Shown here piece by piece: positions 24,350 to 47,259 of a DNA stretch of 56,391 nucleotides. The stretch spans positions 1 through 56,391 of the forward strand of contig MHXZ01000032.1 in NCBI GenBank assembly GCA_001825665.1, read 5' to 3'. Each line of letters begins with the position of its first letter. The stretch's first letter is position 1. A program made the translations under genes and the position numbers. The DNA is from Planctomycetes bacterium GWF2_41_51. GTDB lineage: Bacteria; Planctomycetota; Phycisphaerae; Sedimentisphaerales; UBA12454. The notes beneath the pieces are model-generated. The model was not told the origin of the DNA. It did not search any database and was given only the letters and a program-made list of their open reading frames with translations.

Positions 24350-27016
24350 TTAATATTTAATCACTTTTACTTTCCATAAGCCGCTTGCCAAATCCTTTGC
24401 GGAACCGCTCCCGTTATGAATTCTGATTTCAACGTTACCGGTTGAAGCAACATAACCAGTAACAATCGTATCCTGTAAATCATATGGCGGATAAACTATG
24501 ACGCTATCGCCGACAGCCGCACCTGCAACCGCAATAGAGCTGGAAGTTGCGCCAGTATTATTACTAAGACTTGGAGGATTCCAGGTGATTGAACCACTTT
24601 CTCTGCTTAAAGCCCAACTTCCGGTCTGATTAACAATATAAAAGTTAGGGCCTAAAGAACGAATCGTCAGCTTACTGCCCGGAACATTGGATGAAATATT
24701 ACCGGAACCACTTGGGTAAAGAGTATAGTTGCCTGCATCGATTGTCATTTTATGACCGGCAACAACTTCAAACGTATATTCATTACCAAATAAAGCAGAA
24801 TCTACATTGTTTGGCGATAGAGTGATATCGCCTGTTGCGCCTTCATTGGTAATTGTCTGGCTGATATATTTAGTCATATCAGCGGCGCTTATGCTCGATG
24901 TGGTTGCGTATTCAGAGTCGTCGGTGAATTTTACTTTGCAATAACCATAAAACGGCCCGTTTGCCTTATACAAGCGTTTATTGTTCGGCATATTTGTTGA
25001 GACTTCTATGTCGATATTCTCAATACCGGCGTTAGCTTCATAATTATGCAGGCATACGGCCTTTAGAGCCTTGCCGTCTGTCGATTCGACATGAACGTTT
25101 TGAGCTGTAATATTTCCAGCCATCCTGTTACTTGCATTCATAACCACTACAAGGCCGCTTGCGTAACGTTCCCAGCCGGCGCCAAGATTGTTCTGATTTG
25201 GATTTATAATCTCCAGACCATCGATGGTAACCGGTAAATTGGCCGATGTGCTGCTGAATCCGGTTGCTTTTGCGTTTATACTATAGCAATCCTTTATATA
25301 AACCATTCCTCCGCCATTGGAATCACTAGGTCCCTGATCAACACCGAACCCCATATTATCACCAATACTGACACAACCCCGGATTATAACTGATATTGGA
25401 GTGTTAAGCCCGCCATCTTTGGCAAAAGAAAAACCAGCCGAGTAATTATCAAAGGAATAACAATCTTCGAAAATTATATTTTGAAGATAATCGCTGGCAT
25501 AATCTGGTTCAATATCGACGCCTTTCTGCGGACTGGTTCCGTTCGTATTCGAAAACGTACATTTCTTGAATAAAACATTCTTTGCGCTTGTAATTGAACA
25601 AGCATTACGTCTATTGTTATTGAAAGTGGAGTTTTCTACATAGACGCCGTCCGGAGCACCACCGCCCACGCAGATCCCATCGCCCCAACAATTATATACA
25701 TTAACATCTTTTATTACAATGTCTGCTGAAGCGTTTTCTATTTCTATTCCATGTCCCCATTCGCCGGTTGCACCCAGATGGTCGTATCTTTCACCTTCTA
25801 TTGTAGCTCCTATTATTTTTATATTTTTTTTGCCGTCAAGAAGGATAACGGAATACATCCCTCTATCGTTTGGAATGGCTTTTAATTTAGAGCCGGGTTC
25901 AAAAATTAGTGATGTATTATTGGCAGGCTGCAATCCTCCATATATACCTCCCGGTCCCGTCGGGTCAATGGCATATGTTACTGACGGGAAACGGATTGTT
26001 TTCGCGCCTGAATCAAGAGCTGCCTGGCAAACGGCAGTATCATCTACCGCACTGATTTGTCCCCACCATTGTGGATAAGCTTCTTTTACGAGTGGTCCCA
26101 AAACAACATTACCAGCACCTGAAAAGATTTGGCTTATTGGTGCTTCAACGGTTCCATTGATTGTTACTGTATCGCCGCTTGCAACAAAAAGGCGTGCTCC
26201 CTGCTCGAATTTCAGATTTACATTGGCCGGTATAGTAAGTGAGTTAGATACCTGCCACACACCTGCTTTGAGCAATAATGTTTTTTTAGAACTGCCTATG
26301 GCGTTTAACGCAGAAGTTATAGTCGCATCGGTGAAACTGCCATAGTCTCTTGCGTCTATCCACGGCATAGAGGAAGTTAAATAATTTGAACCTATAACAG
26401 TTGTGATTGAACCATTATAATTGACAATTACTTCGCCCATACCGCTATAGGCACTAATATAACCACTGTTTTCATAATCTTTAACAAGATTGTAGGCGTT
26501 ACCAATGATTGTCAAAGTACCACCTGAAATATCAAGCAAAGCATCGCCGCCCATCGTCAATGCCCGCACATTTATTGTACCGCCATTGAGATAAAATCTC
26601 TCAGTACCGGGCCTGTTCATATGAAGAGTACCATAACCGGCACCTGTTGCAGTAACTGTTCCGCCGCTCATGGTAACTGTCGCAGTTCCGCCAGCATAAT
26701 AAGCCAAATCAAGATTGTATGTGCTTACTGTAAGAGAGCCGCCGGTAATAGTTAAACTTGCGCTGCTGCCGCTGCCGGGCATAAGTGAAACATCAGCGGC
26801 ATTGGCTGTTTCATTGTCTATAACAGGATTATAAGTTGTACCGTTAATAAAAACATTGTCAAAAGCAGTAGGCACAGCGTTAGTAGACCAATTTCCCGCA
26901 GTTGACCAATTAGTGTAGGAACCTACAACATCGCCCTGCCATGTAGCATTTGCGCCAAAGGCACTGTTAATCAAAGTCATGATAACAAACAATAAATAAA
27001 AATTTTTCTTTGCCAT
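24350..27016 (-). CDS. Secreted beta-helix paralogue A with N-terminal surface module
   Basis: This 888-residue protein has a signal peptide (1-22), then a beta-rich module at about 23-215 with the W-x-G...NW start and ASLTITGGSLTVSTYNLDLAYY, shared with three other proteins here. The beta-helix core starts at about 218 with PWIDARDYG and includes GTWQ/GVWQ-type rungs, KEAYPQWWG, a long array of turns with VENSTFNNNRR, and SPQKGVDIEPD. Unlike its paralogues it has a C-terminal extension of about 90 residues ending WKVKVIKY. AGGAGG precedes the ATG. It probably binds or cuts polysaccharide outside the cell; catalytic residues are not identified. Confidence 0.83.
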   Translation of the reverse strand: MAKKNFYLLFVIMTLINSAFGANATWQGDVVGSYTNWSTAGNWSTNAVPTAFDNVFINGTTYNPVIDNETANAADVSLMPGSGSSASLTITGGSLTVSTYNLDLAYYAGGTATVTMSGGTVTATGAGYGTLHMNRPGTERFYLNGGTINVRALTMGGDALLDISGGTLTIIGNAYNLVKDYENSGYISAYSGMGEVIVNYNGSITTVIGSNYLTSSMPWIDARDYGSFTDATITSALNAIGSSKKTLLLKAGVWQVSNSLTIPANVNLKFEQGARLFVASGDTVTINGTVEAPISQIFSGAGNVVLGPLVKEAYPQWWGQISAVDDTAVCQAALDSGAKTIRFPSVTYAIDPTGPGGIYGGLQPANNTSLIFEPGSKLKAIPNDRGMYSVILLDGKKNIKIIGATIEGERYDHLGATGEWGHGIEIENASADIVIKDVNVYNCWGDGICVGGGAPDGVYVENSTFNNNRRNACSITSAKNVLFKKCTFSNTNGTSPQKGVDIEPDYASDYLQNIIFEDCYSFDNYSAGFSFAKDGGLNTPISVIIRGCVSIGDNMGFGVDQGPSDSNGGGMVYIKDCYSINAKATGFSSTSANLPVTIDGLEIINPNQNNLGAGWERYASGLVVVMNASNRMAGNITAQNVHVESTDGKALKAVCLHNYEANAGIENIDIEVSTNMPNNKRLYKANGPFYGYCKVKFTDDSEYATTSSISAADMTKYISQTITNEGATGDITLSPNNVDSALFGNEYTFEVVAGHKMTIDAGNYTLYPSGSGNISSNVPGSKLTIRSLGPNFYIVNQTGSWALSRESGSITWNPPSLSNNTGATSSSIAVAGAAVGDSVIVYPPYDLQDTIVTGYVASTGNVEIRIHNGSGSAKDLASGLWKVKVIKY

Positions 27017-27066: not shown

Positions 27067-27086
27067 TATTCCATTCAAAGATATTT

Positions 27087-29799: not shown

Positions 29800-31137
29800 T
29801 CAACGCAATGAAACATACTTTTCATGAGCTTGCAGCAGTCGTTGACCCATTTCCTTAATTTGATCGCAGTTAAGATGTGAACAGACAGGATCAAGCCTCA
29901 GAGCCTGTAACGCCAATTCCCTGTTGTTCTCAAAGCAAGCTTTTACAGTCAAATTAAACACGTATGCCAAAGGCTCTATTAAACCAACAATGCTATCAGG
30001 CAATGCGCCGTAATTTAGAGGCGTTACGCTGTTTTTATCAATCATGCACGCTGTTTCAACAACGGTTCCTAATGGCAGGTTTGAAATCTGCCCCTTATTC
30101 TTAACATTGCCGACATCAATAAATTTCTTGCCGGTTAAATGAGCATTGATAATATCTGCTGCGGTTTCGCGGCTTCGCTCAAGGTATTTATCATTAATTT
30201 CACCTTTAAGCATTCTTTTAAGTGCATCCTCTCGATCCTTAAACATTTTTCGGCGATTTGAAATACTCGTTCGTTTGATATTGTATTTACGCAGATTCTT
30301 TTTATTTGTGATAAACCATGGAAAAGATTCGCATGTATGCCTGTCACCAAGATAAGGCAAATAATTTGTCATTCGGAAAAGCTCATCAGCAACATACCTG
30401 CCGCTTTTGAAACCCATGGAATCGCTGTGGTCGATTTTGAGCAAATCGGTTATAGACTTGGTTTGCAGCTTTTTACGAAGATCAGCAATAATATCGATAT
30501 TGCCAACCCTGCCCTCTGTTATCCAAAAAAAGTGGTTCAACCCGGCATATTTCAAATAAATTTCATCTTCAGATTTGGCGCCATAAAGCTCCTGAAGGAA
30601 ATGGATATTCTCAAAAAGTCCGTGGCAAAGGCCTATTACCGGCCCTGTACATAGCTGCTGAAGAACATCTGTTAACACCGGCATAGGATTTGTATAATTC
30701 AAAACCATCGCACCGGGACAGTATTTATTTAAAGAATTTGAAATATCGACAAATGCGCCAAAATTACGAATACTTCTTGCCCATCCGCCCGGCCCTTGAG
30801 TATCGCCAACCGTATGATAAATACCATACTCTTCCGGAATTGCGATATCATGGGCCATCGCGTCGAGGCCGCCTGTGGATATGGTAATAATAACATAGTT
30901 GGCGTCTTTTAATGCGTGGGCTTTGTTACTGGTCGTGATGATGTTACTCTCTATTTTTAATAATTTGCTGAGTTTATCCAAAAAGGCTTTATTTAAATCA
31001 GCCGGTTTTTTATTTATATCATAGAGAACATATTCGACATCCTGCAACGATTCTGTAAGAAGCATATCTTTGATAATTAATGGAGTCCATGCGTTACTGC
31101 CGCCCCCAATAATAACTATTTTGATTTTAGACTTCAT
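29800..31137 (-). CDS. GH4 family NAD- and metal-dependent glycosidase (alpha-galacturonidase/glucuronidase-like)
   Basis: This 445-residue protein has the GH4 dinucleotide fold with GGGSNAWTP at 11-19. The metal and active-site motif is LCHG with C171 and H172, and GLNHFFW with N201 and H202 follows. NYTNPMPV at 148-155 completes the family pattern. GH4 enzymes cleave glycosides by oxidation at C3 and elimination, using NAD+ and Mn2+. The CHG form is seen in uronidase members, which would suit a galacturonan-derived oligomer. No signal peptide is visible, so it acts in the cytoplasm on imported products. No good ribosome site is visible before the ATG. Confidence 0.87.
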   Translation of the reverse strand: MKSKIKIVIIGGGSNAWTPLIIKDMLLTESLQDVEYVLYDINKKPADLNKAFLDKLSKLLKIESNIITTSNKAHALKDANYVIITISTGGLDAMAHDIAIPEEYGIYHTVGDTQGPGGWARSIRNFGAFVDISNSLNKYCPGAMVLNYTNPMPVLTDVLQQLCTGPVIGLCHGLFENIHFLQELYGAKSEDEIYLKYAGLNHFFWITEGRVGNIDIIADLRKKLQTKSITDLLKIDHSDSMGFKSGRYVADELFRMTNYLPYLGDRHTCESFPWFITNKKNLRKYNIKRTSISNRRKMFKDREDALKRMLKGEINDKYLERSRETAADIINAHLTGKKFIDVGNVKNKGQISNLPLGTVVETACMIDKNSVTPLNYGALPDSIVGLIEPLAYVFNLTVKACFENNRELALQALRLDPVCSHLNCDQIKEMGQRLLQAHEKYVSLR

Positions 31138-31163
31138 AATACATTTTCAACAAACTAAACAAA

Positions 31164-33059: not shown

Positions 33060-33147
33060 TATATTAACTCCTTTCGTTAGATACTAATTCCTTAGATATA
33101 TTTTAATTAAAACTGATTTGCTGAACTTTCGATTTGGTTCAGGCATC
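33060..33147 (-). repeat. Duplicated intergenic spacer, copy 1
   Basis: The spacer before gene B is nearly the same as the one before gene C (35017-35104), sharing GATACTAATTCCTTAGATAT and the AACTGATTTGCTGAAC stretch. It carries the AAGGAG ribosome site of gene B. It shows that the duplication unit included the upstream DNA and ribosome site. Confidence 0.7.
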
Positions 33148-35016
33148 CTATTGCCAGGTTCCTATCTGTTCGATGATATACCAATTAGTTCCGTCAGATT
33201 TAATTTTCAGCTTACTGCCAATTGTGTCCGAATAATAAGAAGACTTATCGCCGGGCAAAAGTGGGAAACCAGTCATATCAATCGTCATGCGATAAGCAGC
33301 TTTTACAACAAATGTAAAGATACTACCATTAGTTACTGTCTTAGGATCAGTTAAAGCTATCGTTATATCCCCCAAAGCATCAGCGTTCGTAATCGTCTGA
33401 TGGATAAAACTTGCAGCATCGGTCGAACTTATATCTTTCGTTGTTGCATAAACTGGTTCATCAGGAAACCGCACGTTGCAATAGCCATGAAATGGTCCTT
33501 CACTTTTGAACATCCGCTTGTTGTTCGGCAAATTTGTTGTCAGTTCTATATCAATATTCTCTATGCCTGAATTAACCTTGGAATTGTCAGATTGCAGACA
33601 CAACGCCCTTAGGGCCTTGCCATCTCTTGATTCCACATACACATTTTTTGCCGTTATATTTCCTGCCAATCTATTAGGATCGCCCATAAATACAACAAAG
33701 CCGCTTCCATACTCGACCGACTTCTGTGATGACTGGTTAGGGTTGAGTACATATAAACCATTTATTGTTATTGGCAAATTAGCCCATCCACAGCTAAATC
33801 CCGTCGTCTTGGGATTTATAACGTAGCAATCGCTAATGAATACCATTCCGCCATTTGTATTACTCGGGCCCTGGTCAACACCGAATCCAAAACCATCGTC
33901 TTTGCTCGTACAACCGCGGAAAGTAACTGAAATAGGATTGTCAAGTCCATCGTCTTTAGCAATCGAAAAACCGGTAGATACATTGTTAAATGAACGGCAA
34001 TCTTCAAAAACTATATTCTGAATATAGTCGGTCGCTCGATCCGGCTCAATATCAACACCCTTCTGCGGGCTTGTGCCATTGCTATTAGAGAAAGTACATT
34101 TTTTAAACATAACATTTTTGGCATTCGTTACAGCACAACCAACCCTTCTATTATTGTCGAAATTGGAATTCTCCACATATACTCCATCTGGAGCACTGCC
34201 ATACCCGCCAATGCATATACCATCACCCCAAAAATTGTATGAATTCACATCCTTTACAACTATGTTGGTTGACTGACCTCTTATCAGGATTCCAAAGCCC
34301 CATTCCCCGGTTTTGCCGGTATGCTCATACCGCTCTCCCTCAAGGGTCGCCCCATATATTTTTACATTATTCTTGCCTTCGATCTTTATTACCGAATAAC
34401 CCTTTGAATCATTAACAATGGCTTTCAATTTCGATCCGGGATCAAAAATTAAGGTTGTATTACTTGCTGGCTGCAAACCACCCCATACGGTAACCTCCCC
34501 ATCTTTGTCAAGAGTCTCGTCGACACCATCAATCGAATATATTGCAGATGGAAAACGAATTGTTTTTGCGCCAGAATTAAGGGCTGCCTGGCAAATTGCT
34601 GTATCGTCTATAGAATTTACATCGCCCCACCATTGCGGATAAACCTCTTTCAAATAATGAGGCCCAAATACAACTTTTCCTTTTCCCGAAAAAATCTTCT
34701 GTAAACCGCTAACTTCCATATTACCGTTGATAGTAATAGTATTTGATTCGGCTATATCGAAAACAGCGCCTGGTTCCAATTTTAAATTAACATTCGAGGG
34801 TATCATAATAGAATTATTGATTTTCCAAGAGCCTGACGCTAAAAACAAAGTTTTGTTGCTTGCGCCTATCGCCCCTAAGGCTTCCTTAATTACTGTATCG
34901 TTGAATCCATCTTTAGAATAATTTCTGGCATCTACAGATTGTGTATCGGAAGCGCTCAAATCTGCTAATATGGAAAGAAGCACAATCATCATTATAGAAA
35001 CAAACCTTTTGCCCAT
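33148..35016 (-). CDS. Secreted beta-helix paralogue C
   Basis: The start is set at ATG 35016 (MGKRF), which matches gene B and has AAGGAG eight bases upstream; the ATG at 35034 is part of that ribosome site. The 622-residue protein has a signal peptide (about 1-22) and a core with SVDARNYSKDG, the YPQWWG motif, VENSNFDNNRR and SPQKGVDIEPD. The ending is SKLKIKSDGTNWYIIEQIG. N-terminal DNA nearly matches gene B, while the region 33812-33912 is identical to gene D, so the gene is a mosaic. The secreted carbohydrate-active role is inferred from family and locus. Confidence 0.83.
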   Translation of the reverse strand: MGKRFVSIMMIVLLSILADLSASDTQSVDARNYSKDGFNDTVIKEALGAIGASNKTLFLASGSWKINNSIMIPSNVNLKLEPGAVFDIAESNTITINGNMEVSGLQKIFSGKGKVVFGPHYLKEVYPQWWGDVNSIDDTAICQAALNSGAKTIRFPSAIYSIDGVDETLDKDGEVTVWGGLQPASNTTLIFDPGSKLKAIVNDSKGYSVIKIEGKNNVKIYGATLEGERYEHTGKTGEWGFGILIRGQSTNIVVKDVNSYNFWGDGICIGGYGSAPDGVYVENSNFDNNRRVGCAVTNAKNVMFKKCTFSNSNGTSPQKGVDIEPDRATDYIQNIVFEDCRSFNNVSTGFSIAKDDGLDNPISVTFRGCTSKDDGFGFGVDQGPSNTNGGMVFISDCYVINPKTTGFSCGWANLPITINGLYVLNPNQSSQKSVEYGSGFVVFMGDPNRLAGNITAKNVYVESRDGKALRALCLQSDNSKVNSGIENIDIELTTNLPNNKRMFKSEGPFHGYCNVRFPDEPVYATTKDISSTDAASFIHQTITNADALGDITIALTDPKTVTNGSIFTFVVKAAYRMTIDMTGFPLLPGDKSSYYSDTIGSKLKIKSDGTNWYIIEQIGTWQ

Positions 35017-35104
35017 GTTATTAACTCCTTTCATTAGATACTAATTCCTTAGATATATTTAAATTAAAACTGATTTGCTGAACATTCGGCCTGGTTCAGG
35101 CATT
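35017..35104 (-). repeat. Duplicated intergenic spacer, copy 2
   Basis: This is the copy of 33060-33147, with a few substitutions, that contains the AAGGAG of gene C. Together with gene starts B and C it marks the unit of tandem duplication. Confidence 0.7.
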
Positions 35105-37723
35105 CTATTGCCAGGTTCCTATCTGTTCGACAATAAACCAATTTGTTCCATTAGACCTGATTTTTAATTTGCTGCCGGTTATATTCGAATAATAAGATGT
35201 CTTATTACCGGGTAGAAGCGAAAATCCAGTCATATCGATTGTCATGCCGTTAGCAGCTTTTACAATAAAAGTAAATTCACTTCCCTTCGATGCGGATTTA
35301 GCGGATGTAAGGGAAATAGTAATATCATTTGCGGCGCCTTTATTGGTGATAGTCTGGCCGATAAATTTTTCTGCCGCGGCAGCATTTAAGCTAACGGTCG
35401 TATCGTAAACCGGCTCATCAGCAAATCGTACATTGCAATATCCATAAAAAGGACCTTCATTTTTGAACATACGTTTGTCATTCGGCAGGTTCGTTGTAAC
35501 TTCAAAGTCAATATTCTCTATACCTGAATTTGCCATTGAACTATCATTTTTTAAACATACGGCATATAAAGCCTTGTCGTCGGTTGATTCAACGCAGACA
35601 TTCTTTGCCATAATATTTCCAGCATACCTGTCTGAATCGCCCATATAAACCACAATCCCGCTGCCGTATTCAGGCGAAGTTTGTGATGACTGATTAGGAC
35701 TTATAACATTTAACCCATTTATCGTTATTGGCAAATTAGCCCAACCGCAGGCAAATCCTGTTGTCTTTGGATTTATAACGTAGCAATCGCTAATGAATAC
35801 CATTCCGCCATTTGTATTACTCGGGCCCTGGTCAACACCGAATCCAAAACCATCGTCTTTGCTCGTACAGCCTCGAAAAGTAACCAAAATTGGATTATCA
35901 AGTGCGCCATCTTTAGCAATCGAAAAACCTGTTGAGATATTGCCGTAAGAATAGCAATCTTCAAAAACAATGTTCTGAATAAAATCGGTAGCATGATCAG
36001 GTTCGACATCGACACCTTTTTGTGGGCTTGTGCCGTTGCTGTTCGAGAAGGTGCATTTTCTAAACAGAACATTTTTTGCGTTTGTTACCGAACAGCCGTT
36101 ACGTCTGTTGTTATTAAATATAGAGTTTTCAACGAATACGCCATCAGAAGGAGGATTCCAATGTGTGCCGATAAAGATGCCATCCCCCCAGCAATCATAT
36201 ACATTGGCATCTTTTACAATGATGTTAGTCGATGCGTTTTGTATCAATATTCCCATCCCGAATTCACCGGTTGTACCGGTATGTGTGCTTCTTTCGCCTT
36301 CAATCGTGGGAGCGATTACCCTTACATTATTTTTATTATCGATTTTAATAACTGAGTATCCGACTTCACCATTGGTTATGGCTTTTAACTTAGCACCCGG
36401 CTCAAAAACCAAAGTAGTATTACTTGCCGGCCTCAATCCACCGTACAATATCATATTACCTTCATTATCCAGGTTTCTGTCCACGCCATCGATAGAATAA
36501 ACCGCAGGTACAAAGCGAATTGTTTTTACGCCGCAATCAAGAGCCGCCTGACAAGCCTTCGTATCATCAATACCGCTTATCTGCGACCACCATTGCGGGT
36601 AAGCGTCCTTAACTAATGAGCCGAAAATTACGTTTCCTTCGCCGGAAAATATTTGATTTACAGGTGTTTCAATCGGCCCATTGATCGTAACCGTCTTTCC
36701 GTCAGATATGTTGAGGATTGCACCTTGCTGAAATTTGAGATTTATATTTTCAGGTATTATAATGGAATTATTAATCTGCCATGTACCCTCGGCAAGCAGA
36801 AGCGTCTTCGCAGATGACCCTATTGCACTTACTGCCTGCGAAATTGTTGTATCATTCAGCACCCCTGAATTAAAATTTCTTGCGTCTACCCATGGCAGTT
36901 TTGTTATGGATTGACCCGGCTCATCTAAATATTGCAGCGCGAGAATCGAGACATCAACCAGATTTACAATTTTATCCCCATTAATATCGCCCGGCAAATA
37001 ACCTGTAGTTTCAGGTATTATTTCAGTTTCCTGAATGGGCGTAATTGTTGTTTTATTGTTTTCTGAATCATATGTCGCGACGATACCGCGAGTATCTCCC
37101 CATTGCGGATCGCTGCTTCCCGCTCCTCTGTCAAGGATAGCAGTTCCTGCCCAATAATTATTTACGGTGTAAGTAATATCTCCATTTATAATTAATTTGC
37201 CTTTGTCGCTGGTAAAATTTATAAATTGGCGCCCATTTCCTCCGGGTGCTGCGTAAAGACCAAGGGTATTTGCTGAAACAGTTCCTCCGATATTGATATA
37301 TTGCAATCCCGGCCTGTTTCCATTGAGAAAATAGCCGCTAATATTAAGATTTGCGTTTTCATCAATCGTAAGAGTGCTACGATTTGAGGCGGTACCATAA
37401 TAACCCATGTCAAAGTTCGAGGGAGATACTGTAAGATTTGCGCCGGACTGAATTGTAAGCGTTACGTTAGTTTTTGTTCCGGTATTATACATTGTTAAAT
37501 CGGTAGTTACCCCGTTTGTTCCTGAATATATCATGCAGTTGCCCGATGAAGGCGCAACATCCGTGATATATACATTCCGAGTCGAATTGGGAACTCCGCC
37601 ATTCCAGTTTGTTGAATAGGCCCAGTTAGTGTTTAACCCTCCAATCCAGGTTGTTGTTGCGGCAAATACATTTGCTGTAAATAAAACAAAAGCTGTAAAT
37701 AATGCTTTTTTATACATACTCAT
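35105..37723 (-). CDS. Secreted beta-helix paralogue D with surface module and half dockerin
   Basis: This 872-residue protein has a signal peptide (1-21) and the shared beta-rich module (22-230: WIGGLNTNWAYSTNW, LTIQSGANLTVSPSNFDMGYY, GYFLNGNRPGLQYINIGGTV). A half dockerin lies at 245-266 (GDINGDKIVNLVDV...QYL). The beta-helix core starts at 277 with PWVDARNFNSG and contains KDAYPQWWS and SPQKGVDVEPD. It has the most complete architecture in the family. The ATG lies 14 bases inside the end of the upstream URO-D-like gene, with AGGG at suitable spacing, so translation is coupled. A 101-base block is identical to gene C. Confidence 0.84.
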   Translation of the reverse strand: MSMYKKALFTAFVLFTANVFAATTTWIGGLNTNWAYSTNWNGGVPNSTRNVYITDVAPSSGNCMIYSGTNGVTTDLTMYNTGTKTNVTLTIQSGANLTVSPSNFDMGYYGTASNRSTLTIDENANLNISGYFLNGNRPGLQYINIGGTVSANTLGLYAAPGGNGRQFINFTSDKGKLIINGDITYTVNNYWAGTAILDRGAGSSDPQWGDTRGIVATYDSENNKTTITPIQETEIIPETTGYLPGDINGDKIVNLVDVSILALQYLDEPGQSITKLPWVDARNFNSGVLNDTTISQAVSAIGSSAKTLLLAEGTWQINNSIIIPENINLKFQQGAILNISDGKTVTINGPIETPVNQIFSGEGNVIFGSLVKDAYPQWWSQISGIDDTKACQAALDCGVKTIRFVPAVYSIDGVDRNLDNEGNMILYGGLRPASNTTLVFEPGAKLKAITNGEVGYSVIKIDNKNNVRVIAPTIEGERSTHTGTTGEFGMGILIQNASTNIIVKDANVYDCWGDGIFIGTHWNPPSDGVFVENSIFNNNRRNGCSVTNAKNVLFRKCTFSNSNGTSPQKGVDVEPDHATDFIQNIVFEDCYSYGNISTGFSIAKDGALDNPILVTFRGCTSKDDGFGFGVDQGPSNTNGGMVFISDCYVINPKTTGFACGWANLPITINGLNVISPNQSSQTSPEYGSGIVVYMGDSDRYAGNIMAKNVCVESTDDKALYAVCLKNDSSMANSGIENIDFEVTTNLPNDKRMFKNEGPFYGYCNVRFADEPVYDTTVSLNAAAAEKFIGQTITNKGAANDITISLTSAKSASKGSEFTFIVKAANGMTIDMTGFSLLPGNKTSYYSNITGSKLKIRSNGTNWFIVEQIGTWQ

Positions 37724-38882
37724 ATTTACCCTGCCTTTTAAACTTCATGTCGTCTATGCTCCCGTATTGCTCCACTGTTTCGCCAACAGCTTTTAGATTT
37801 TCACATGGAGTACCATAGACTGTATCATCATCCGTACCAAGCATAAATCTGCCGCCGGATAACATCTTTGAAAGCACGTTCTTGGTTTTTTCTTTAATTT
37901 CCTCGATGCTTGAGGTTGCTAAAAAATTAGGAGCAAGTCCGCCGCCGATGATTGTGATATTGTTCTTCAATCCTTTGCATAACTTGTCGATAGTATCATC
38001 CTGACCCAAATCTGCAACACCATAAAGAGCATCGATATTAGAATCGTTTATCATATTAACAATGCCCCACAAAGGCTCGCCGCTGGTATGATTGGTGTAT
38101 AATTTGCCTTTGGAATGTAAAATCTCCGCATATCGTTTTGTATATGGCAAATAATACTCATTGAAAATATTAGGAGAAATCATGCCCGTTCCGGTTACCG
38201 CTGAATCATTAAATACCTCTCCCGGCGTATCAGCCATTATTTTATAAATTTGCTGATTCCTGGCATCCATAGCGGTTACGAGATCATCGAAAATATTCTT
38301 ATTATCCTGAATAATATAAACAGCATTCTCCAGTTTTAAATAATGAAGAAGCATATCTTTCAACGGAGGCGGCGGAACATATAAAAATATTACTCCTGCC
38401 TGGCCGAGAATCTTGAGATGTTCAAATAATCTTTCATCAAGCTGACAAGTTTGATTTTCAACTACGTATTGAAAAACTTTCATATCTTCTGCTCTTTCAA
38501 GCAGCATCTTTGAATGAAACCAGGTTTTTGCGACATCCGAATAACTGGTTTCTTCCGCGATAATTCCTACCGGCGTTCGGTATTCAGTTCTGTGTTTATT
38601 ATCGCTTTGACTTCGATGTATTTCTACTTTTGCCGAACAATTCAGATTATAAAAAAGTGCGCTCCATTGTAAATAATCGGCTTTGATCACGTTATTATAA
38701 AAATCGATTCGTGTTTTAAGGCCTTCCGCAGATAAATAATCTGCGCCTGCAGTATAATCTGGCACCGAACCAAAATATGAGTATGAGCATAACGGCATCC
38801 ATGGAATTCGATCCGGCTGCTGACCTTTTAAAACCGCCAGAATTCTTTGTCTTGATGTCATTTTGTCTTTTTTCGAATTCAT
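37710..38882 (-). CDS. URO-D-like superfamily protein (MtaA/CmuA-like)
   Basis: From ATG 38882 (AAGGA ten bases upstream; other in-frame ATGs at 38903 and 38861) the protein has 390 residues. MTSRQRILAVLKGQQPDRIP near the start is the classic URO-D superfamily opening. Later are the barrel elements LYTNHTSGEPLWGIVNM, DIDALYGVADLGQDDTI-like and MLGTDDDTVYG. It is cytoplasmic. Its position between two secreted beta-helix genes (D and E) is odd and suggests the protein is part of the same degradation pathway. True heme-pathway function is unlikely because the cluster has no heme genes. Confidence 0.78.
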   Translation of the reverse strand: MNSKKDKMTSRQRILAVLKGQQPDRIPWMPLCSYSYFGSVPDYTAGADYLSAEGLKTRIDFYNNVIKADYLQWSALFYNLNCSAKVEIHRSQSDNKHRTEYRTPVGIIAEETSYSDVAKTWFHSKMLLERAEDMKVFQYVVENQTCQLDERLFEHLKILGQAGVIFLYVPPPPLKDMLLHYLKLENAVYIIQDNKNIFDDLVTAMDARNQQIYKIMADTPGEVFNDSAVTGTGMISPNIFNEYYLPYTKRYAEILHSKGKLYTNHTSGEPLWGIVNMINDSNIDALYGVADLGQDDTIDKLCKGLKNNITIIGGGLAPNFLATSSIEEIKEKTKNVLSKMLSGGRFMLGTDDDTVYGTPCENLKAVGETVEQYGSIDDMKFKRQGKYEYV

Positions 38883-38908
38883 CTTCAAGATATCCTTATG
38901 CATAGAAT

Positions 38909-40759
38909 TTATTGCCAGGTTCCGATTTGCTCTACAATATACCAATTGCTTCCATCAGCTCTAACCTTCAGCCTGTCGCCTACCGTAGTAGAATAATAAC
39001 TGGTTTTATTTCCGGGCAAGAGAGGATAGCCTGACATGGCGAGAGTTATGCGATATGGCGATTTCACTTCAAACGTAAATTCGCTGCCGTTGGATACCGA
39101 TGCCGGAGCGGTTAATACAACTGTAATATTTCCTGCTGCCCCCTGATTGGTAATAGTCTGTCCGATATATTTTACCGCTTCTGTTGAGCTTACGTTACCT
39201 GTCGCATTATAAACCGGATTATCAGGAAAACGCACCCTGCAATAGCCCTTAAACGAATCAACACTGTCAGCTTTAAAAAATCGTTTATTGCTTGGCATAT
39301 TCGTTGTCAGTTCTATATCAATATTTTCGATACCGGAATTTGGTTGAGAACTGAAATGATGCAGGCACAATGCTTTTATAGCCTTCCCGTCAGTGGATTC
39401 CACATGAACATTTCTTGCGGTTACATTGCCTGCAAGCCTGTTGTCATCCATCATTAAGACAACAAGACCGCTTGCGTATCTTGCCCATGATTCATCAAGA
39501 CCATCCTGATTGGGATTAATTACAGTAAGTCCATTTATTGTTACGGGCAAATTAGCTGAACCGGTGGCAAACCCATTTGATCTGGCATTTATGCTATAAC
39601 AATCGGTGATAAAAACCATTCCTCCGTTGGTATCGCTTGGGCCTTGGGCAATGCCAAAACCGGTACTATCACCATAACTTGTACAGCCCCGGAAAGTAAC
39701 CGAAAAAGGATTATTAAGCGGACCATCTTTTGCAATTCCAAAACCTGTAGCCGCGTTGTTATATGAACGGCAATCTTCAAAAACAATATTTTGAATGTAA
39801 TCCCCGGCGTAATCCGCTTCGACATCAACACCATTCTGCGGGCTTGTGCCATTTGTATTCGAGAAGGTGCATTTTTTAAAAAGAACATTTCTGGCGTTCG
39901 TAATTGAGCACCCCTGTCTTCTGTTATTATCGAAGATTGAATTTTCTACGTAAACATCTTCCTGCGTTCCGCCGCCGATACAAATTCCATCGCCCCAGCA
40001 GTCGTAAACGTTTGCGTCTTTTATAACAATCCCTTTTGACTGGTCTTGTATCAAAATTCCCATTCCCCATTCGCCGGTTGTTCCGGTATGAGTCTTGCGA
40101 TCTCCCTCAATCGTCGGGCCATATATTTTTACATTTTTCACGTCTTTAATATTTAGGACGGCATAATGGGCTCTGTCGTTTGTAATCGCTTTTAATTTCG
40201 ATCCTTGTTCAAAAATCAAGGTTGTATTGCTTTTAGGCTGCAAACCGCCGTATTCAATAATTTGCGGGTCATGAGGAAGAATATTATATGTGCCAGGCAA
40301 AAAGCGAATTGTTGCAGCTCCGCTGTCGAGAGCGGCCTGACATACGTTATTATCGTTCACTGTACCGACATTACCCCACCATTGCGGGTAAGCCTCTTTT
40401 ACAAGCGAACCAAGTTTAACAGTTCCATCTCCTGAAAAAATCTGTCTGACAGATGATTCAATGTTGCCATTGATCGTTAATGTTCTGCCGCCGGATATTT
40501 TTAAAATTGCTCCATGTTCGAATTTCAATGTTATGTTCGATGGTATCGTGATTGAATGTGTTATGTACCACATACCGGCAGCCAAAAAAATAGTTTTTTC
40601 AGATGGCCCTGCCGCATTCAATGCTCCGGTTATTGCCGCACCATCATAATCGTTGTAATTTCCATCATGATAATCTCTTGCGTCTATCCATGGAACGTCA
40701 ACGCCCCAGGAGCTTACAGATATAAATAATATCAAGAATAAAATTGTTAATTTTTTCAT
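38909..40759 (-). CDS. Secreted beta-helix paralogue E
   Basis: From ATG 40759 (three bases after the previous stop; the longer frame overlaps gene F) the 616-residue protein has a signal peptide at 1-19 (MKKLTILFLILFISVSSWG). It goes straight into the beta-helix core with PWIDARDYHDGNYND, a KEAYPQWWG motif, VENSIFDNNRR, SPQNGVDVEAD and a VGDRLKVRADGSNWYIVEQ ending. The C-terminal half is closest to gene F. GGA lies about eight bases before the ATG. It is presumably a secreted polysaccharide-active protein; catalytic residues are not assigned. Confidence 0.83.
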   Translation of the reverse strand: MKKLTILFLILFISVSSWGVDVPWIDARDYHDGNYNDYDGAAITGALNAAGPSEKTIFLAAGMWYITHSITIPSNITLKFEHGAILKISGGRTLTINGNIESSVRQIFSGDGTVKLGSLVKEAYPQWWGNVGTVNDNNVCQAALDSGAATIRFLPGTYNILPHDPQIIEYGGLQPKSNTTLIFEQGSKLKAITNDRAHYAVLNIKDVKNVKIYGPTIEGDRKTHTGTTGEWGMGILIQDQSKGIVIKDANVYDCWGDGICIGGGTQEDVYVENSIFDNNRRQGCSITNARNVLFKKCTFSNTNGTSPQNGVDVEADYAGDYIQNIVFEDCRSYNNAATGFGIAKDGPLNNPFSVTFRGCTSYGDSTGFGIAQGPSDTNGGMVFITDCYSINARSNGFATGSANLPVTINGLTVINPNQDGLDESWARYASGLVVLMMDDNRLAGNVTARNVHVESTDGKAIKALCLHHFSSQPNSGIENIDIELTTNMPSNKRFFKADSVDSFKGYCRVRFPDNPVYNATGNVSSTEAVKYIGQTITNQGAAGNITVVLTAPASVSNGSEFTFEVKSPYRITLAMSGYPLLPGNKTSYYSTTVGDRLKVRADGSNWYIVEQIGTWQ

Positions 40760-40761
40760 AT

Positions 40762-42738
40762 TTAATTCCAGCTTCCGATTCTTTCGATGATGCGCCAATT
40801 AGTTCCATCTGCCCTGATTCTTAATCTGTCGCCCACGGTTGTTAAATAGTACGATGTCTTATTGCCGGGCAGAAGAGGATATCCAACCATGCTAAGTGTT
40901 ATTCGATATGGCGATTTCACTACAAAGGTAAATTCGCTGCCGTTAGATACAGATGCAGGCGCTGTTAATACTACTGTAATGTTAGCCGTTGCACCTTCAT
41001 TTGTGATAGTTTGACCAATATATTTAGCAGCTTCGATTGAACTTACATTTCCCGTTGTCGCAAACACAGGCTCATCAGGAAAGCTTACATTACAATAACC
41101 TAGAAATGACGACGCGCTGTCAGCCTTAAACATACGCTTATTATTTGGCATATTCGTTGTCAATTCGATATCAATATTCTTGATACCGGAATTTGGCTGC
41201 GAACTGTAATGATGCAGGCATAACGCTCTTACGGCTTTACCATCAGTTGATTCGACATGAACATTTCTGGCAGTAACATTACCTGAAAACCTGTTATCAT
41301 CGTTCATCAAAACCACAAAACCGCTTGCATATCTTATCCATGATTCACCAAGATTATCCTGATTGGGATTTGTTATAGTTAAACCATCAATCGTTATAGG
41401 CAAATTTGCCGAAGAACTGCTGAATCCTGTACTTCTGGCATTTATACTGTAACAGTTACTAATAAAAACCATTCCTCCACCGTTTGAGTCACTGGGCCCT
41501 TGAGAAATACCAAAGCCCATATTATCGCCATTACTTACACATCCTCGAAAAGTAACTGATATCGGATTGTTGAGTCCTCCATCTTTAGCCAATCCAAAAC
41601 CGCTGGCCAAATTATTATATGAATAGCAATCTTCAAAAACTATGTTTTGAATATAAGAAGTAGCCTTATCCGGTTCTACATCCACGCCTGCCTGGGGACT
41701 AGTGCCATTGGTATTGGAAAAAATACATTTTTTAAATGATATATTTTTTCCTTGCGTAATAGAACAGGCATTACGTCGGTTATTATCAAATATGGAATTT
41801 TCAACATACACTCCATCCGGAGGAGGATTCCAATGAATACCAACATAAATGCCGTCTCCCCAGCAATCATATACATTAGCGTCTTTTATCACAATGCGAG
41901 TCGATGCATTACTTATCATTATTCCCATTCCCCACTCACCTGTTGTGCCAGTATGAGTATAGCGATCGCCCTCGATTGTGACGCCATATATTTTTACATT
42001 ATCTTTTTTATCTAGGAGTATAACGGAATAACTCGGTTTGTCGTTTGTGATCGCTTTTAATTTCGAGCCTTGTTCAAATATCAATGTTGTACCACTTGCA
42101 GGCTTTAGGCCGCCATAATCATTGGTTATATTATCAACCGGATTGATATTGTATGTTCCAGGCATAAAGCGAATCGTTTTGACCCCGCAATCAAGTGCCG
42201 CCTGACATATATTATTATCGTTCACTGTACCAGGGGGCCCCCACCATTGTGGATAAGCCTCTAAAACTGACGGGCTAAGATTTACTTTGCCTGCACCTGA
42301 AAATATCTGACTTATCGTGGCCTCGATATTTCCATTTATTGTTAATGTTTTTCCTGCGGCAACGTTAAGGACCGCGCCATGTTCAACCTTTAAATTTATA
42401 TTTGCAGGTATGATAATCGAATTGGTTATTTCCCATGTGCCTGATGAAAGCATTAGTGTTTTAACAGATGAGCCAATTGCACTTACCGCTTCATTGATTG
42501 TTATGTCGTTCAGGTTGCCATTATTATATATTCTTGCGTCTATCCAGGCGAGTTTCGTACCGCTGCCGTCCGAAGGTTCAAGCCATTGCTCAACCACGCC
42601 GAATATATCGAACAAGTTAACAACGCCGTCACCATTAATATCCCCTGTAAAATAACTATTACCTTCAATATCGCCTTGAACAACAGTTGATGAAAACAAC
42701 ACGATATTTAAAAGAATTATTATTGATTTGATATACAA
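40762..42738 (-). CDS. Secreted beta-helix paralogue F with N-terminal half dockerin
   Basis: The only available start is TTG 42738, with AAGGTG a few bases before it, because an in-frame TGA lies just upstream. The 658-residue protein has a signal peptide (1-22), a half dockerin at 32-53 (TGDINGDGVVNLFD...QWLEP) and a beta-helix core from residue 65 (WIDARIYNNG) with LEAYPQWWG, VENSIFDNNRR and SPQAGVDVEPD. The end reads VGDRLRIRADGTNWRIIER. It is the first of the tandem beta-helix genes in transcription order. Confidence 0.83.
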   Translation of the reverse strand: MYIKSIIILLNIVLFSSTVVQGDIEGNSYFTGDINGDGVVNLFDIFGVVEQWLEPSDGSGTKLAWIDARIYNNGNLNDITINEAVSAIGSSVKTLMLSSGTWEITNSIIIPANINLKVEHGAVLNVAAGKTLTINGNIEATISQIFSGAGKVNLSPSVLEAYPQWWGPPGTVNDNNICQAALDCGVKTIRFMPGTYNINPVDNITNDYGGLKPASGTTLIFEQGSKLKAITNDKPSYSVILLDKKDNVKIYGVTIEGDRYTHTGTTGEWGMGIMISNASTRIVIKDANVYDCWGDGIYVGIHWNPPPDGVYVENSIFDNNRRNACSITQGKNISFKKCIFSNTNGTSPQAGVDVEPDKATSYIQNIVFEDCYSYNNLASGFGLAKDGGLNNPISVTFRGCVSNGDNMGFGISQGPSDSNGGGMVFISNCYSINARSTGFSSSSANLPITIDGLTITNPNQDNLGESWIRYASGFVVLMNDDNRFSGNVTARNVHVESTDGKAVRALCLHHYSSQPNSGIKNIDIELTTNMPNNKRMFKADSASSFLGYCNVSFPDEPVFATTGNVSSIEAAKYIGQTITNEGATANITVVLTAPASVSNGSEFTFVVKSPYRITLSMVGYPLLPGNKTSYYLTTVGDRLRIRADGTNWRIIERIGSWN

Positions 42739-42795: not shown

Positions 42796-43671
42796 CTATA
42801 ATGATTCACCCTCACGTTTGGGGCTATATTCCCTTCGGTCAAATATCCACAAAAGGTCGGGATTATTTTTGCTGGCCCATCCAATTTTCCCTTTTTGCTC
42901 AGAATAATCTCTTATATTAGCAAGCGTTATAGTTCTCTTGTCTCGCCATATTTGTGTTTCTGCATGCCCGTCAGCAAAACCCCAGTTGCTTCTGTTATAA
43001 TGCCAGGGAGCTACTACATTATTCCATACAAGCCCTCTATCGTTGTCTTTCGCATCTATATCCCAACAACCTTGATTCCATCCTCTCGAATCAGTTGCTT
43101 CCACAAAGACATATCTGCGCGCTGGTGTTCTGATTTGGCTGATCATTTTAGCATTTTTCACATACCACCACGGCGCATTCATCCCTGCGCCAATATTATA
43201 ACTTCGTCTGGCAGGTTGTTTACCTTTATTATCTTGCAGTCTTGGGTCGCCTCCGCAATGATATACATCAAGAGTCTTAACGTAAGAATAAAGCAAACCT
43301 TTTTTAATGCCTCTTTCTTTATCAGCCAGAGGAGCGTCAGCCCAACTGCTGCCATCGAATGAAACTAAAGTTCCACTTTCATTAGATGGCGCTTCAACCC
43401 ATGAATACCACATATCGCTTGTTATCTGGGGATTGTTAGATGTGCCGCTTACCCCTGCATACCCGCCAACTAATCTTCCAGAATTACTTGTTGCATAAGT
43501 AGTCCATGCTATCGCTAATTGACGTATACTGCTTTGGCATACGACACATCGCGCAATATTCCTGGCTTTATTTAACGCTGGTATCAAAACAGCCAAAAGC
43601 ATTGCTATGATTGAAATTACCACTAACAATTCAACCAACGTAAACCCGCGAACAGTTTTATAATTTCTCAT
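42796..43671 (-). CDS. Type II secretion-type pseudopilin with H-X9-DG tail (DUF1559-like)
   Basis: This 291-residue protein begins with a class III leader: positive residues and then the prepilin cleavage site G9-F10 followed by TLVELLVVISIIAMLLAVLIPAL, with glutamate at +5. Near residues 227-238 it has H, nine residues, then DG (HYNRSNWGFADG), the signature of planctomycete pseudopilin-like proteins. These form short fibres or surface proteins through a type II secretion-like machine, the likely export route for the neighbouring half-dockerin and beta-helix proteins. AGGA lies eight bases before the ATG. Other secretion genes are not in the window. Confidence 0.88.
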   Translation of the reverse strand: MRNYKTVRGFTLVELLVVISIIAMLLAVLIPALNKARNIARCVVCQSSIRQLAIAWTTYATSNSGRLVGGYAGVSGTSNNPQITSDMWYSWVEAPSNESGTLVSFDGSSWADAPLADKERGIKKGLLYSYVKTLDVYHCGGDPRLQDNKGKQPARRSYNIGAGMNAPWWYVKNAKMISQIRTPARRYVFVEATDSRGWNQGCWDIDAKDNDRGLVWNNVVAPWHYNRSNWGFADGHAETQIWRDKRTITLANIRDYSEQKGKIGWASKNNPDLLWIFDRREYSPKREGESL

Positions 43672-43803: not shown

Positions 43804-45237
43804 TTAAAAATTACCGCATGCTGCTGCCGGCTCGAATGCACATGTCATCCAATTCTCGGCAATCAGAGCGAAATCTTCAAAATCCACATCGCAATCGCCG
43901 TCTTCATCACCTGCAAAGCGTAATCCACCATTGCATACCGGTGTAATCGTGTGGAATTTCCATGTAGGACCTGTAACCGTGATCGGACCCGGGAATACTT
44001 CGTCAACACGCCAATCGTAGGCCCTGCCGTAAAGCAGTGTAGGTGCATAGGTTGTAGCCGCCGGTGCATTAATTGTCGAAACCAAAGCCCATGCCCCGTT
44101 TCGTTCACGCATATAAACCAGGTGACTTGTAGCTGCCGGATCGCTTGTCCAGTTCAAAGTTATGTTTGTCGCTACTTCCGGAGAATCAGTATCTGTCGGG
44201 CTTACAAGAACTGCTGCCCCTGCCATTGTTGTATCGAAAGTCCATACATCGCCGGTAATAGTGATTGGATTACCAAAATTAGCGTCAGTTACATCTACAC
44301 GCCAATAATATGGTGTTTCGGAAAGCAGATTGCCGCTTGGATCGTATGATGTCGCTGAACCAACATTAACACCGCTTCCCATAGCTGAAGGATTTGTACT
44401 CAAATATACTTTGTATGCCAGAGCATCTCCTGAGGATTTAAGAGGAGCTGACCATGATAATACTGGAGTAACAGTGACATCGATCGCTTCGTCTTCAGGA
44501 ACTGGATCTATCGCAGCTTTTGCGTTTTCTACATACTTTAAAGATTTAAATGTTGTAGTGTCAGTTCCAGCATCATATTCAGATACGAAACCGTAGGTAA
44601 CGCCCCATTCCGGAACAATCTCACCATCCAAAACACCACTTGCAAAATCTCTGTCAAGCCAATAACGCGCCCACCATGTGATATACCATGGATCTGAATA
44701 ATCCCCTTTAAGAACTAATTTACCTGTTCGCTCTGTAAAATTAATTATGATACGAGCATCTTTATTAAAGCCAAGATTACGGGCTTTAACGGTACCAGCA
44801 AGATTAACAACAGATCTGCCCTGCCTGTATGCGTTCAGGAAATTACCGAAAGGTGCGGCACCGGCCACATCCAACAATGCGCCTTGTTCAACGTTAAGAA
44901 CTGAATTAGCTTCGGTTGCAGTGTAGCCAAGTTCAAAGTTATACATATTCGTTGTCAAACTTGCGCCGGATTTAATTGTGAGTGATGCTGCTGATTGTGA
45001 CGATCCGGCTCCTGCATCAACCATTGCATCGTTTGCCAATCCAACAGTGCCGAGATAAATAACGCAATTTCCGTCATTGATTGACACCATATCCTCTTCG
45101 TTTGGCATCCAATAAGAGCTCCAATTGTCATCCAAACTCCAATCATCGCTGATAGTTCCCAGCCAAATCGCATTTAGCGCAAATACATTCACGCTCAAAA
45201 ATAAAACAACAATCAAAGATATAATTTTTTTTGTCAT
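43804..45237 (-). CDS. Secreted surface protein: shared beta module, two FN3-like repeats, C-terminal half dockerin
   Basis: From ATG 45237 (AGGAGG seven bases upstream) the 477-residue protein has a signal peptide at 1-20. The shared beta-rich module spans about 21-240 (WLGTISDDWSLDDNW, LTIKSGASLTTNMYNFELGY). Two fibronectin-III-like repeats follow, with VTPVLSWSAPL...YKVYLSTNP...YYWRVDVTD and ITLNWTSDPAATSHLVYMRE...YDWRVDEV. A half dockerin ends the protein near 443-464 (GDEDGDCDVDFEDF...NWM). No catalytic domain is recognised. It may be a structural or substrate-binding surface protein. The perfect palindrome TTAACCTGGGTTAA sits right beside its ribosome site. Confidence 0.82.
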   Translation of the reverse strand: MTKKIISLIVVLFLSVNVFALNAIWLGTISDDWSLDDNWSSYWMPNEEDMVSINDGNCVIYLGTVGLANDAMVDAGAGSSQSAASLTIKSGASLTTNMYNFELGYTATEANSVLNVEQGALLDVAGAAPFGNFLNAYRQGRSVVNLAGTVKARNLGFNKDARIIINFTERTGKLVLKGDYSDPWYITWWARYWLDRDFASGVLDGEIVPEWGVTYGFVSEYDAGTDTTTFKSLKYVENAKAAIDPVPEDEAIDVTVTPVLSWSAPLKSSGDALAYKVYLSTNPSAMGSGVNVGSATSYDPSGNLLSETPYYWRVDVTDANFGNPITITGDVWTFDTTMAGAAVLVSPTDTDSPEVATNITLNWTSDPAATSHLVYMRERNGAWALVSTINAPAATTYAPTLLYGRAYDWRVDEVFPGPITVTGPTWKFHTITPVCNGGLRFAGDEDGDCDVDFEDFALIAENWMTCAFEPAAACGNF

Positions 45238-45250
45238 AATATACCCTCCT

Positions 45251-45264
45251 TTAACCTGGGTTAA
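45251..45264. promoter_or_regulatory. Perfect 14-base palindrome before the half-dockerin gene
   Basis: TTAACCTGGGTTAA lies directly upstream of the AGGAGG of the 45237 gene. Its first 11 bases also occur at 5030-5040, directly after the -10 of the lone plus-strand beta-helix gene. Shared binding by one regulator is possible but unproven. Confidence 0.4.
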
Positions 45265-45314
45265 AAAAAGTTTTAAAAAGGCCAACGTATCCTTCTGAAA
45301 ACCAGATTTTTTCT

Positions 45315-46052
45315 TTATTTATTTTTCCTAATCAAAACCAATCCAAGACCTAAAAGCAACATACTTGCTGGTTCTGGCACTGCGGCAAAAGTTGTTTTAC
45401 CATCAGCATAGCTGACTGCTAAATTCCAGCCTTCTTCGCCATAAGCGACTCCATTATGGAGCATCCACGGCAGCCAGTTATTGGCATACCATGATACATC
45501 GCCTTCTGGAATGTTTGAAACGGTAATAGAGCCTGCGTCACCGATAAAGTCCACATAAACCGGGTTTGTCTTGCTGAAACCAAAGCTTGCCGCGTTAACT
45601 GTTCCGCCAATATTAACGTACTGTGGTGACAATCTATTGCCATTAATAAAATAACCCGCGACTGTCAATGAAGCGCCTGCTTCAAGATTGAGAGTACCGC
45701 TCTCAGTACCCGCATAATAATTTAATTCAAAGTTGTACGACGTAACATTTAAACTTGCCCCAGCCTTGATCGTAATTGACTGATTACCGCCTGAACCACT
45801 ATTGGCCGACATTCCATAATCCGCACATACAGCACTTGTACCGGAATAGATCGTCAGATCGCCTGAACCTGGATAACCTGACCGGTTATCAGCATCTGTT
45901 ATCCACAACATGTCACCTGCTGCAGGAACTATGCCGCTCCACCAATTGTCGGGATTTGCCCAATCATTATTTGTTCCGCCATAATATGATTGATTTATGG
46001 CCATTACATTACTTACAGTCACAACCATTAATAAAATAATAATCTTCTTCAT
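45315..46052 (-). CDS. PEP-CTERM sorted surface protein carrying the shared beta module
   Basis: This 245-residue protein has a signal peptide (1-18), the shared module (19-220: QSYYGGTNNDWANPDNW, ITIKAGASLNVTSYNFELNYY, AGYFINGNRLSPQYVNIGG) and a PEP-CTERM tail at 225-245 with VPEP, a hydrophobic stretch and RKNK. PEP-CTERM tails direct cleavage by exosortase, with attachment to or release at the cell surface. GGAG precedes the ATG. It is the first structural gene after the GntR/LacI-type regulator, with an operator-like palindrome just upstream. Confidence 0.85.
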   Translation of the reverse strand: MKKIIILLMVVTVSNVMAINQSYYGGTNNDWANPDNWWSGIVPAAGDMLWITDADNRSGYPGSGDLTIYSGTSAVCADYGMSANSGSGGNQSITIKAGASLNVTSYNFELNYYAGTESGTLNLEAGASLTVAGYFINGNRLSPQYVNIGGTVNAASFGFSKTNPVYVDFIGDAGSITVSNIPEGDVSWYANNWLPWMLHNGVAYGEEGWNLAVSYADGKTTFAAVPEPASMLLLGLGLVLIRKNK

Positions 46053-46120: not shown

Positions 46121-47224
46121 TCATTTTTTAAATGGAATACATGTTTCGCCAAGCGATAAAACCCCCGGAACCTCTTGAAATGTGCAAATGTTCGATTTGA
46201 CAGCCCTTACAACCGCCTCAACCGTCATTTGCGCAACATATTCACTTTGAACGCTTATACAAGTCAGCTTCGGTGTAAATCCATGCGTAAGTCTTTTATC
46301 ACCGATAGCTATCATGCTTATATGTTCAGGAACCTTTAAACCACTCGTTACCATTTGAGCCATCAACCTGTAACTGTGTTCCGTTCCTAAACTTACCATT
46401 GCTGTCGGCTGCTGGGGCATATTCCTGATGTTATTAACCAATTCATTCATATTCCCAGTTGTATACCCAAGCATTTCAGTACACACATCGGCCTCCTGTG
46501 AAGCCGCTTTTAGGCCGGCGTCAAATTCCTGACACAAAACAGGCAATGTCGTATCAGTACATACAACGCCGACAATATGCTTATGGCCGAATCCCGCAAA
46601 AAAACCTGCTGCCTGCAATACTGCTGATTTATAGTCCAAAGTGATTTTGCTCAAACCTTCTTCATTACTGCAAATCGTCCCGCCAATAACAACGAAATGT
46701 TTGACATTTTTTCGTAATATATTCAGAAGGTTGTCATCAATATAGCCCATCAAAATAACGCCATTAAGTCCTTCAGACCATTGTGTAATATGCTGCTCTT
46801 CACCTTGCTGGCCTGTAAAGTAAGTATCAAACACAATATTTATCCCACTATTGTGAGTGTATTTTTGAATATCCAATTGCACAAGATGATTGAAATGTGA
46901 ATTGAGCGAACTTCCGGCAAAAAGAAAACCTATCTTGTATTCACATGCAGCTTTGGCGGATTTTTCATAGGCTGATGCATCTTGAACAAAAATACCTTTA
47001 CCGTGTACGCTTTTCAGCAAGCCTTCATTTTGCAGCACCTCTACTGCTTGCCTGACGGTCGTCAATGCAACTTTATGCTGATTAACCAATCTCTCCTGCG
47101 ATGGAACACATTCACCAATTTTAAACTTTCCATCAAGTATATCCCTGCGAAGCTTTTCTGCCAGTTGAACATACTTTGGCAATCGCCGAGATTTTATGGT
47201 CGTTAACGTTTCCGTATTATTCAT
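46121..47224 (-). CDS. GntR/LacI chimeric transcriptional regulator (AraR-like)
   Basis: From ATG 47224 the 367-residue protein has a GntR winged-helix domain (about 15-85: YVQLAEKLRRDILDGKFK, VPSQERLVNQHKVALTTVRQA, GKGIFVQD) joined to a LacI/periplasmic-binding-protein-like sensor from about 95 (KIGFLFAGSS, VILMGYIDDN, GFGHKHIVGVVC, KLTCISVQSEYVAQMTVEAVV). This is the domain order of AraR. It probably represses the superlocus through the palindrome at 46083 and is released by a pathway sugar. Its promoter lies directly before the ATG, so the message may be leaderless. Confidence 0.87.
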   Translation of the reverse strand: MNNTETLTTIKSRRLPKYVQLAEKLRRDILDGKFKIGECVPSQERLVNQHKVALTTVRQAVEVLQNEGLLKSVHGKGIFVQDASAYEKSAKAACEYKIGFLFAGSSLNSHFNHLVQLDIQKYTHNSGINIVFDTYFTGQQGEEQHITQWSEGLNGVILMGYIDDNLLNILRKNVKHFVVIGGTICSNEEGLSKITLDYKSAVLQAAGFFAGFGHKHIVGVVCTDTTLPVLCQEFDAGLKAASQEADVCTEMLGYTTGNMNELVNNIRNMPQQPTAMVSLGTEHSYRLMAQMVTSGLKVPEHISMIAIGDKRLTHGFTPKLTCISVQSEYVAQMTVEAVVRAVKSNICTFQEVPGVLSLGETCIPFKK

Positions 47225-47230
47225 AAGTGT

Positions 47231-47259
47231 ATAATAGTAATTCACAACTGTTAAGTCAA
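47231..47259 (-). promoter_or_regulatory. Promoter of the GntR/LacI regulator
   Basis: TTGACT (47254-47259) and TATTAT (47231-47236) on the minus strand are 17 bases apart. The -10 is only six bases from ATG 47224, so transcription would begin at or near the start codon, giving a leaderless mRNA. This also rules out the longer frame to 47245, whose start lies between the two boxes. Confidence 0.65.

Follow-up and report, generated by a model that had tools for sequence, protein, structure and literature searches.

A cluster-private beta-solenoid module shared by PEP-CTERM proteins and neighbouring secreted enzymes of a planctomycete suggests a means of surface retention

In Planctomycetes bacterium GWF2_41_51, small PEP-CTERM proteins and the secreted enzymes encoded beside them carry a common module in versions private to the gene cluster, which suggests a hitherto undescribed way to hold digestive enzymes at the cell surface. 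The window (the whole stretch of 56,391 nucleotides analysed here; GC 40%) contains a long gene cluster on the minus strand, with a GntR/LacI-type regulator (46121..47245) upstream of a PEP-CTERM anchor (45315..46052), an adaptor-like protein (43804..45285), a prepilin-type pseudopilin gene (42796..43671; PF07963 above cut-off) and six beta-helix paralogs interspersed with GH4 and GH123 genes. The module copies of the window are surrounded by GH4, GH123, beta-helix and sugar isomerase genes. Proteins are named below by their lower coordinate, and the features of the cluster all lie on the minus strand.

The anchor, 45315, has 245 amino acids and consists of a signal peptide, the module (45375-45998, pairwise BLASTP) and a PEP-CTERM sorting signal, VPEPASMLLLGLGLVLIRKNK (45318..45380), which scores 26 bits against a PF07589 cut-off of 20.7. 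Besides the signal peptide it shows the PEP motif, the hydrophobic stretch and the basic C-terminal end expected of such proteins, and the genome encodes two exosortases (PF09721, E 6.5e-53 and 1.1e-48), in agreement with the view of the first-pass annotation that the module is surface-sorted. Genome-wide there are about 74-80 PEP-CTERM genes, about 74 of them over the cut-off. The adjacent protein, 43804, has a signal peptide, a module (44536-45177, pairwise BLASTP), two FN3-like segments and a half-dockerin, GDEDGDCDVDFEDFALIAENWM (43846-43911), and its start is more likely ATG 45237 than the TTG at 45285 first assigned. Its description as an FN3/half-dockerin protein stands in so far as a clear one-loop EF-hand motif is present, but this has no Pfam match, and the FN3 part receives only a sub-threshold Ig-like match from Pfam; the single-sequence model of this part has a pLDDT of 37 and was left out of structural readings. 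A scaffold-like role in the cellulosome sense had also been considered possible for 43804. This was not upheld, since the protein bears a half-dockerin instead of cohesins and no cohesin (PF00963) is detectable in the genome at E <= 1 (assembly 95.6% complete), making 43804 adaptor-like rather than a scaffoldin. A paralog occurs in a second cluster of the same genome, on contig C56 (E 6.5e-37).

Two putative enzymes, both with a beta-helix above the Pfam cut-off, carry the remaining copies, as had been proposed. In 35105 (35105..37723) the N-terminal module (37031-37660, pairwise BLASTP) is followed by a half-dockerin (36926-36991, read from the sequence) between module and beta-helix, an addition to the earlier description, and 24350 (24350..27016) has an N-terminal module of divergent type (26384-26953, from BLASTP and profile-profile comparison). 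The module is absent from the four other beta-helix paralogs of the window, one of which (40762..42738) has an N-terminal half-dockerin at 42580-42645. The six paralogs, at 24350-42738, are 50-72% identical over ~600 residues and show four N-terminal layouts: bare, half-dockerin, module, and module plus half-dockerin. On the opposite strand, a divergent rhamnogalacturonase-like beta-helix protein (5117-6577) also has an N-terminal half-dockerin (5204-5266).

The N-terminal ~200 residues of 45315, 43804, 35105 and 24350 are homologous (pairwise BLASTP, E 1e-34 to 2e-6) and score 9 to 42 standard deviations over shuffled sequences, confirming that the four proteins carry one module, which in each case immediately follows the signal peptide. 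It starts with W-x-G ... W ... NW ... VP ... D, proceeds into a repeat body of GG-x-(I/L)-x and ends in most members with GDxxxxxxxYIxxGxIxAYxGxGxVxxxYDxxxxTTV. The motifs originally quoted for all four proteins apply in part: the module is indeed present in 24350, but as a distant member with deviating motifs (SLTITGGSL, YNLDLAY, YLNGGTI). A tight alignment of the window modules matches a separate alignment of 14 members, drawn from this genome and its relatives, at a profile-profile E of 1e-16. Because of this match, and because the profile has a fixed N-cap, a solenoid body and a C-terminal motif, the four segments are neither unrelated nor generic beta repeats; chance similarity is ruled out by the shuffle scores and the profile-profile match together. 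Some proteins at other loci have two to four module copies in tandem (L046, 1919-6793; L054, 10727-14713; L074, 3845-6232; L017, 15451-16872), and those of L074 and L017 finish in dockerin motifs.

Sequence searches of Pfam and the PDB found no known family for the module. Among 44 members searched, Pfam gave three isolated weak matches and no model that covers the module, and the PDB search returned no relative. Of the four proteins only 45315 has NCBIfam matches, and these lie on its PEP-CTERM end or far under their cut-offs. The carbohydrate-binding family Cthe_2159 is matched by one of the 44 members (E 0.0013), and the other 43 have no carbohydrate-binding match. The predicted structure, built from the window sequences only on an alignment four rows deep (pLDDT 74.6, pTM 0.81), is a beta-solenoid of stacked parallel strands. 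Foldseek found no match to this model at E <= 0.001, and a second structural comparison gave Z 8-10 to solenoids, reaching ~10 for the tapirin/adhesin domains 4wa0 and 6n2b and the SRRP adhesin 5nxk, with autotransporter passengers also among the neighbours. For a predicted model, such neighbours indicate the fold class of the module and not its function. That the module might be a generic autotransporter-type repeat is contradicted at the sequence level, where the PATR model matches 0/44 members at E <= 0.01, although its predicted fold class is the common beta-solenoid.

A further lead concerns the N-cap. Amnionless (6gje) aligns with the N-terminal part of the module model over 71 residues (2.6 A, Z 4.3), and the Amnionless Pfam model has four matches genome-wide, all of which fall on module N-caps, including that of 24350. 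These matches are below the cut-off (E 0.23-1.0; best 11.9 bits against 30.4), so that by this measure the module does not belong to the family and the resemblance does not reach significance. Amnionless holds the unanchored protein cubilin through beta-helix to beta-helix docking (PMC6283879).

The arrangement seen in the window is not confined to it: this genome has more than 30 module copies, spread over about ten clusters, and related genomes show the same pattern. A broad profile search of the genome gives about 44-54 matches, the weakest of them partial. A small gene for signal peptide, module and PEP-CTERM accompanies larger signal-module proteins on contigs C32 (the window), C56, C34, C134, C81, C103 and C94, and in most clusters one such small protein is paired with larger module enzymes of unrelated kinds. 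A module enzyme lies within 10 kb of 8/11 module-bearing PEP-CTERM genes, compared with 0/69 other PEP-CTERM genes of the genome. Since the 10-kb neighbourhoods of module enzymes make up 3.9% of the genome, the probability of 8/11 is 8e-10, although the eight co-located anchors are not all independent because three share one contig. In relatives, a large copy lies within 10 kb of 16/28 small copies (1.0 expected) among the matches listed, which are the strongest part. The module is present in 28/40 near genomes at E 1e-5 and in 2/78 further genomes sampled from the phylum at the differing threshold of 1e-12, and therefore seems to have expanded within one order, probably the Sedimentisphaerales.

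The cargo of these clusters is diverse. In this genome it includes beta-helix, metallophosphatase, GH99, BNR repeat, LamG and CBM35/6 domains, which differ between clusters, and relatives add GH42, GDSL esterase, FAD oxidoreductase and DUF5010. As these domains are unrelated to one another, the enzyme fold does not account for the common module. In at least one cluster, on contig C134, phosphoesterases are the sole recognisable cargo. The cluster of the window has a similar, paralogous counterpart on another contig (locus L017, C56:11501-31500), which contains a regulator, a PEP-CTERM module gene, module-dockerin genes, a module beta-helix, a prepilin, a glycosidase-like gene and a transporter. 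Prepilin-type genes occur in most module clusters, and in this genome a prepilin gene (n=81) lies within 5 kb of 34/80 PEP-CTERM genes, where 10.7 are expected. This proximity agrees with the 'fishing rod' uptake of polysaccharides by pilins proposed for planctomycetes (PMC12078418).

Module versions are private to their clusters to a considerable extent. In six clusters of this genome, 21 of 24 copies have their nearest relative in their own cluster (shuffled mean 3.6, maximum 16 in 5000 shuffles). For the anchors of this genome, the closest cargo copy is in their own cluster in 6/8 cases, a value reached in 0/2000 shuffles. Across 12 genomes, the best same-genome cargo copy of the anchor is in its own cluster in 18/22 cases (shuffled mean 6.2, maximum 12 in 2000 shuffles); the loci for the multi-genome comparisons were partly picked for close-lying copies, a choice that does not affect the 10-kb counts given above. 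In a 120-copy tree (quick maximum likelihood, short search) the cluster label needs 62 changes, against a minimum of 44 and 105 after shuffling, and in about ten clusters an anchor copy and a cargo copy of that cluster come out as immediate sisters. There are exceptions: the copies of 24350 and C56_11382 come from different clusters but pair with one another and not with the anchors of their own. At locus L056 of genome G019 (4615-15670) two anchor-enzyme pairs adjoin, with modules 91% and 86% identical, and each anchor is closest by pairwise score to the FAD-oxidoreductase protein adjacent to it.

Among the youngest pairs, DNA similarity sets in 130-170 bases ahead of the start codon, covers the signal peptide and the module and ends there, which indicates that copies arise by duplication of the 5' part of a gene onto its neighbour. 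Synonymous divergence between paired copies ranges from 0.22 to saturation, and measurable dN/dS is mostly 0.16-0.30, with two pairs near 0.5. Paired copies remain even where synonymous divergence is saturated (39-55% identity), and purifying selection retains both. At 39% identity and with saturated synonymous sites, the pair of the window is old, and saturation in many pairs rules out that all of them are young copies. Perpetual homogenisation within clusters is not general either, because the anchors of the related clusters L050 and L079, which lie in different families, match each other best. Cluster matching is thus more than recent copying, yet ancestry alone could yield it.

A half-dockerin is present on 53/79 module proteins without PEP-CTERM, on 0/27 with it and on 11/219 other ORFs of the same loci, so that the two elements are mutually exclusive on module proteins. 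The window has half motifs, and some full dockerins elsewhere exceed the cut-off. A possible C-terminal membrane helix occurs in 1/79 copies without PEP-CTERM, which leaves the cargo with no evident anchor.

From these sequence comparisons, the module is proposed to be a locus-private surface-retention domain, perhaps docking solenoid to solenoid, with a probability of roughly 0.4. In each cluster an exosortase would attach the small PEP-CTERM copy to the cell surface or matrix, and the remaining copies, N-terminal on secreted unanchored enzymes or on FN3/dockerin adaptors, would be retained by the attached copy, so that what one gene cluster encodes stays in one place on the cell surface. The most direct route would be for modules to dock onto each other by their solenoid ends or edges, on the model of amnionless and cubilin, because the domains of anchor and cargo are alike and matched by cluster. 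The idea that the module recruits enzymes to one surface site would accordingly be better put as one site per cluster, since the versions are cluster-specific. A fuller proposal, in which a PEP-CTERM anchor in each cluster recruits unanchored enzymes by like-with-like docking and so forms several separate cohesin-free assemblies on one cell without cross-talk, has less than even odds. Against docking stand the four module-less beta-helix paralogs of the window, the anchors without a module-bearing neighbour (C28, C90, C70) and two orthologous clusters in which two enzymes have unlike modules and the anchor is absent.

Glycan binding comes close behind docking, at clearly less than even odds: on the anchor the module would tie the substrate to the cell, and on the enzymes it would direct them to the glycan that their cluster breaks down. 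The clusters are glycan-degradation loci, to judge from the gene neighbours of the window modules listed above, the best structural neighbours include the tapirin and SRRP adhesins, one member matches Cthe_2159, and cluster-matched versions agree with glycan specificity. However, the structural matches are generic to solenoids, 43/44 members lack a carbohydrate-binding match, and copies also occur on phosphoesterases and an FAD-dependent oxidoreductase. Docking is preferred because of these non-glycosidase carriers and because the anchor is just module plus sorting tag; the phosphoesterase-only cluster on C134 likewise suits retention better than substrate binding. A single cell-surface or exopolysaccharide ligand common to every cluster would recall the association of PEP-CTERM proteins with exopolysaccharide genomes (PMC1569441), but it predicts no cluster-private versions, which are seen, and is very improbable.

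The matching could also be a by-product of secretion, in which leader, signal peptide and module are copied locally as a front end and the module is a mere spacer or folding aid. The extent of DNA homology in young pairs points this way, matching follows physical clustering, and this account keeps weight because ancestry alone could give cluster matching. It is nevertheless unlikely, as the pattern recurs in many clusters with unrelated enzymes and is specific to module-bearing PEP-CTERM genes (8/11 against 0/69), selection retains pairs beyond synonymous saturation, and PEP-CTERM and dockerin are never on one copy.

Parts of the arrangement have counterparts in known systems. The modular logic common to anchor, adaptor and enzymes resembles the cellulosome, as do the frequent half-dockerins, but here anchor and enzyme bear the same module in cluster-private versions and not complementary partners, and a cellulosome was rejected for lack of a detectable cohesin-bearing scaffoldin. 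The cohesin-dockerin 'planctosome' proposed for other planctomycetes (PMC6461901) similarly requires the cohesins that were not detected in this genome. Tapirins, SRRP and other beta-solenoid adhesins share the fold, and Cthe_2159 one weak sequence match, but there is no detectable family-level sequence relation and they are not known to be common to an anchor and neighbouring enzymes. The amnionless-cubilin complex (cubam) offers a likeness in that a membrane-anchored beta-helix retains a partner without an anchor (PMC6283879); it is eukaryotic, however, and the docking part of cubilin is a trimer and no copy of amnionless. Most PEP-CTERM genes described so far form operons of one gene, and their ectodomains vary (PMC1569441), whereas here the ectodomain is common to neighbouring enzymes. 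PEP-CTERM sorting, solenoid adhesins and dockerins are known; a search of open-licence papers yielded no description of a cluster-private module that an anchor has in common with the enzymes next to it.

The finding bears on how anaerobic degraders without cellulosome scaffolds or SusCD-like systems hold dozens of secreted enzymes near the cell. If docking is true, the modules would be ready-made orthogonal pairs for protein assembly, and even on the modest reading a protein family that Pfam lacks is added, together with a simple rule by which to read the degradation clusters of this order.
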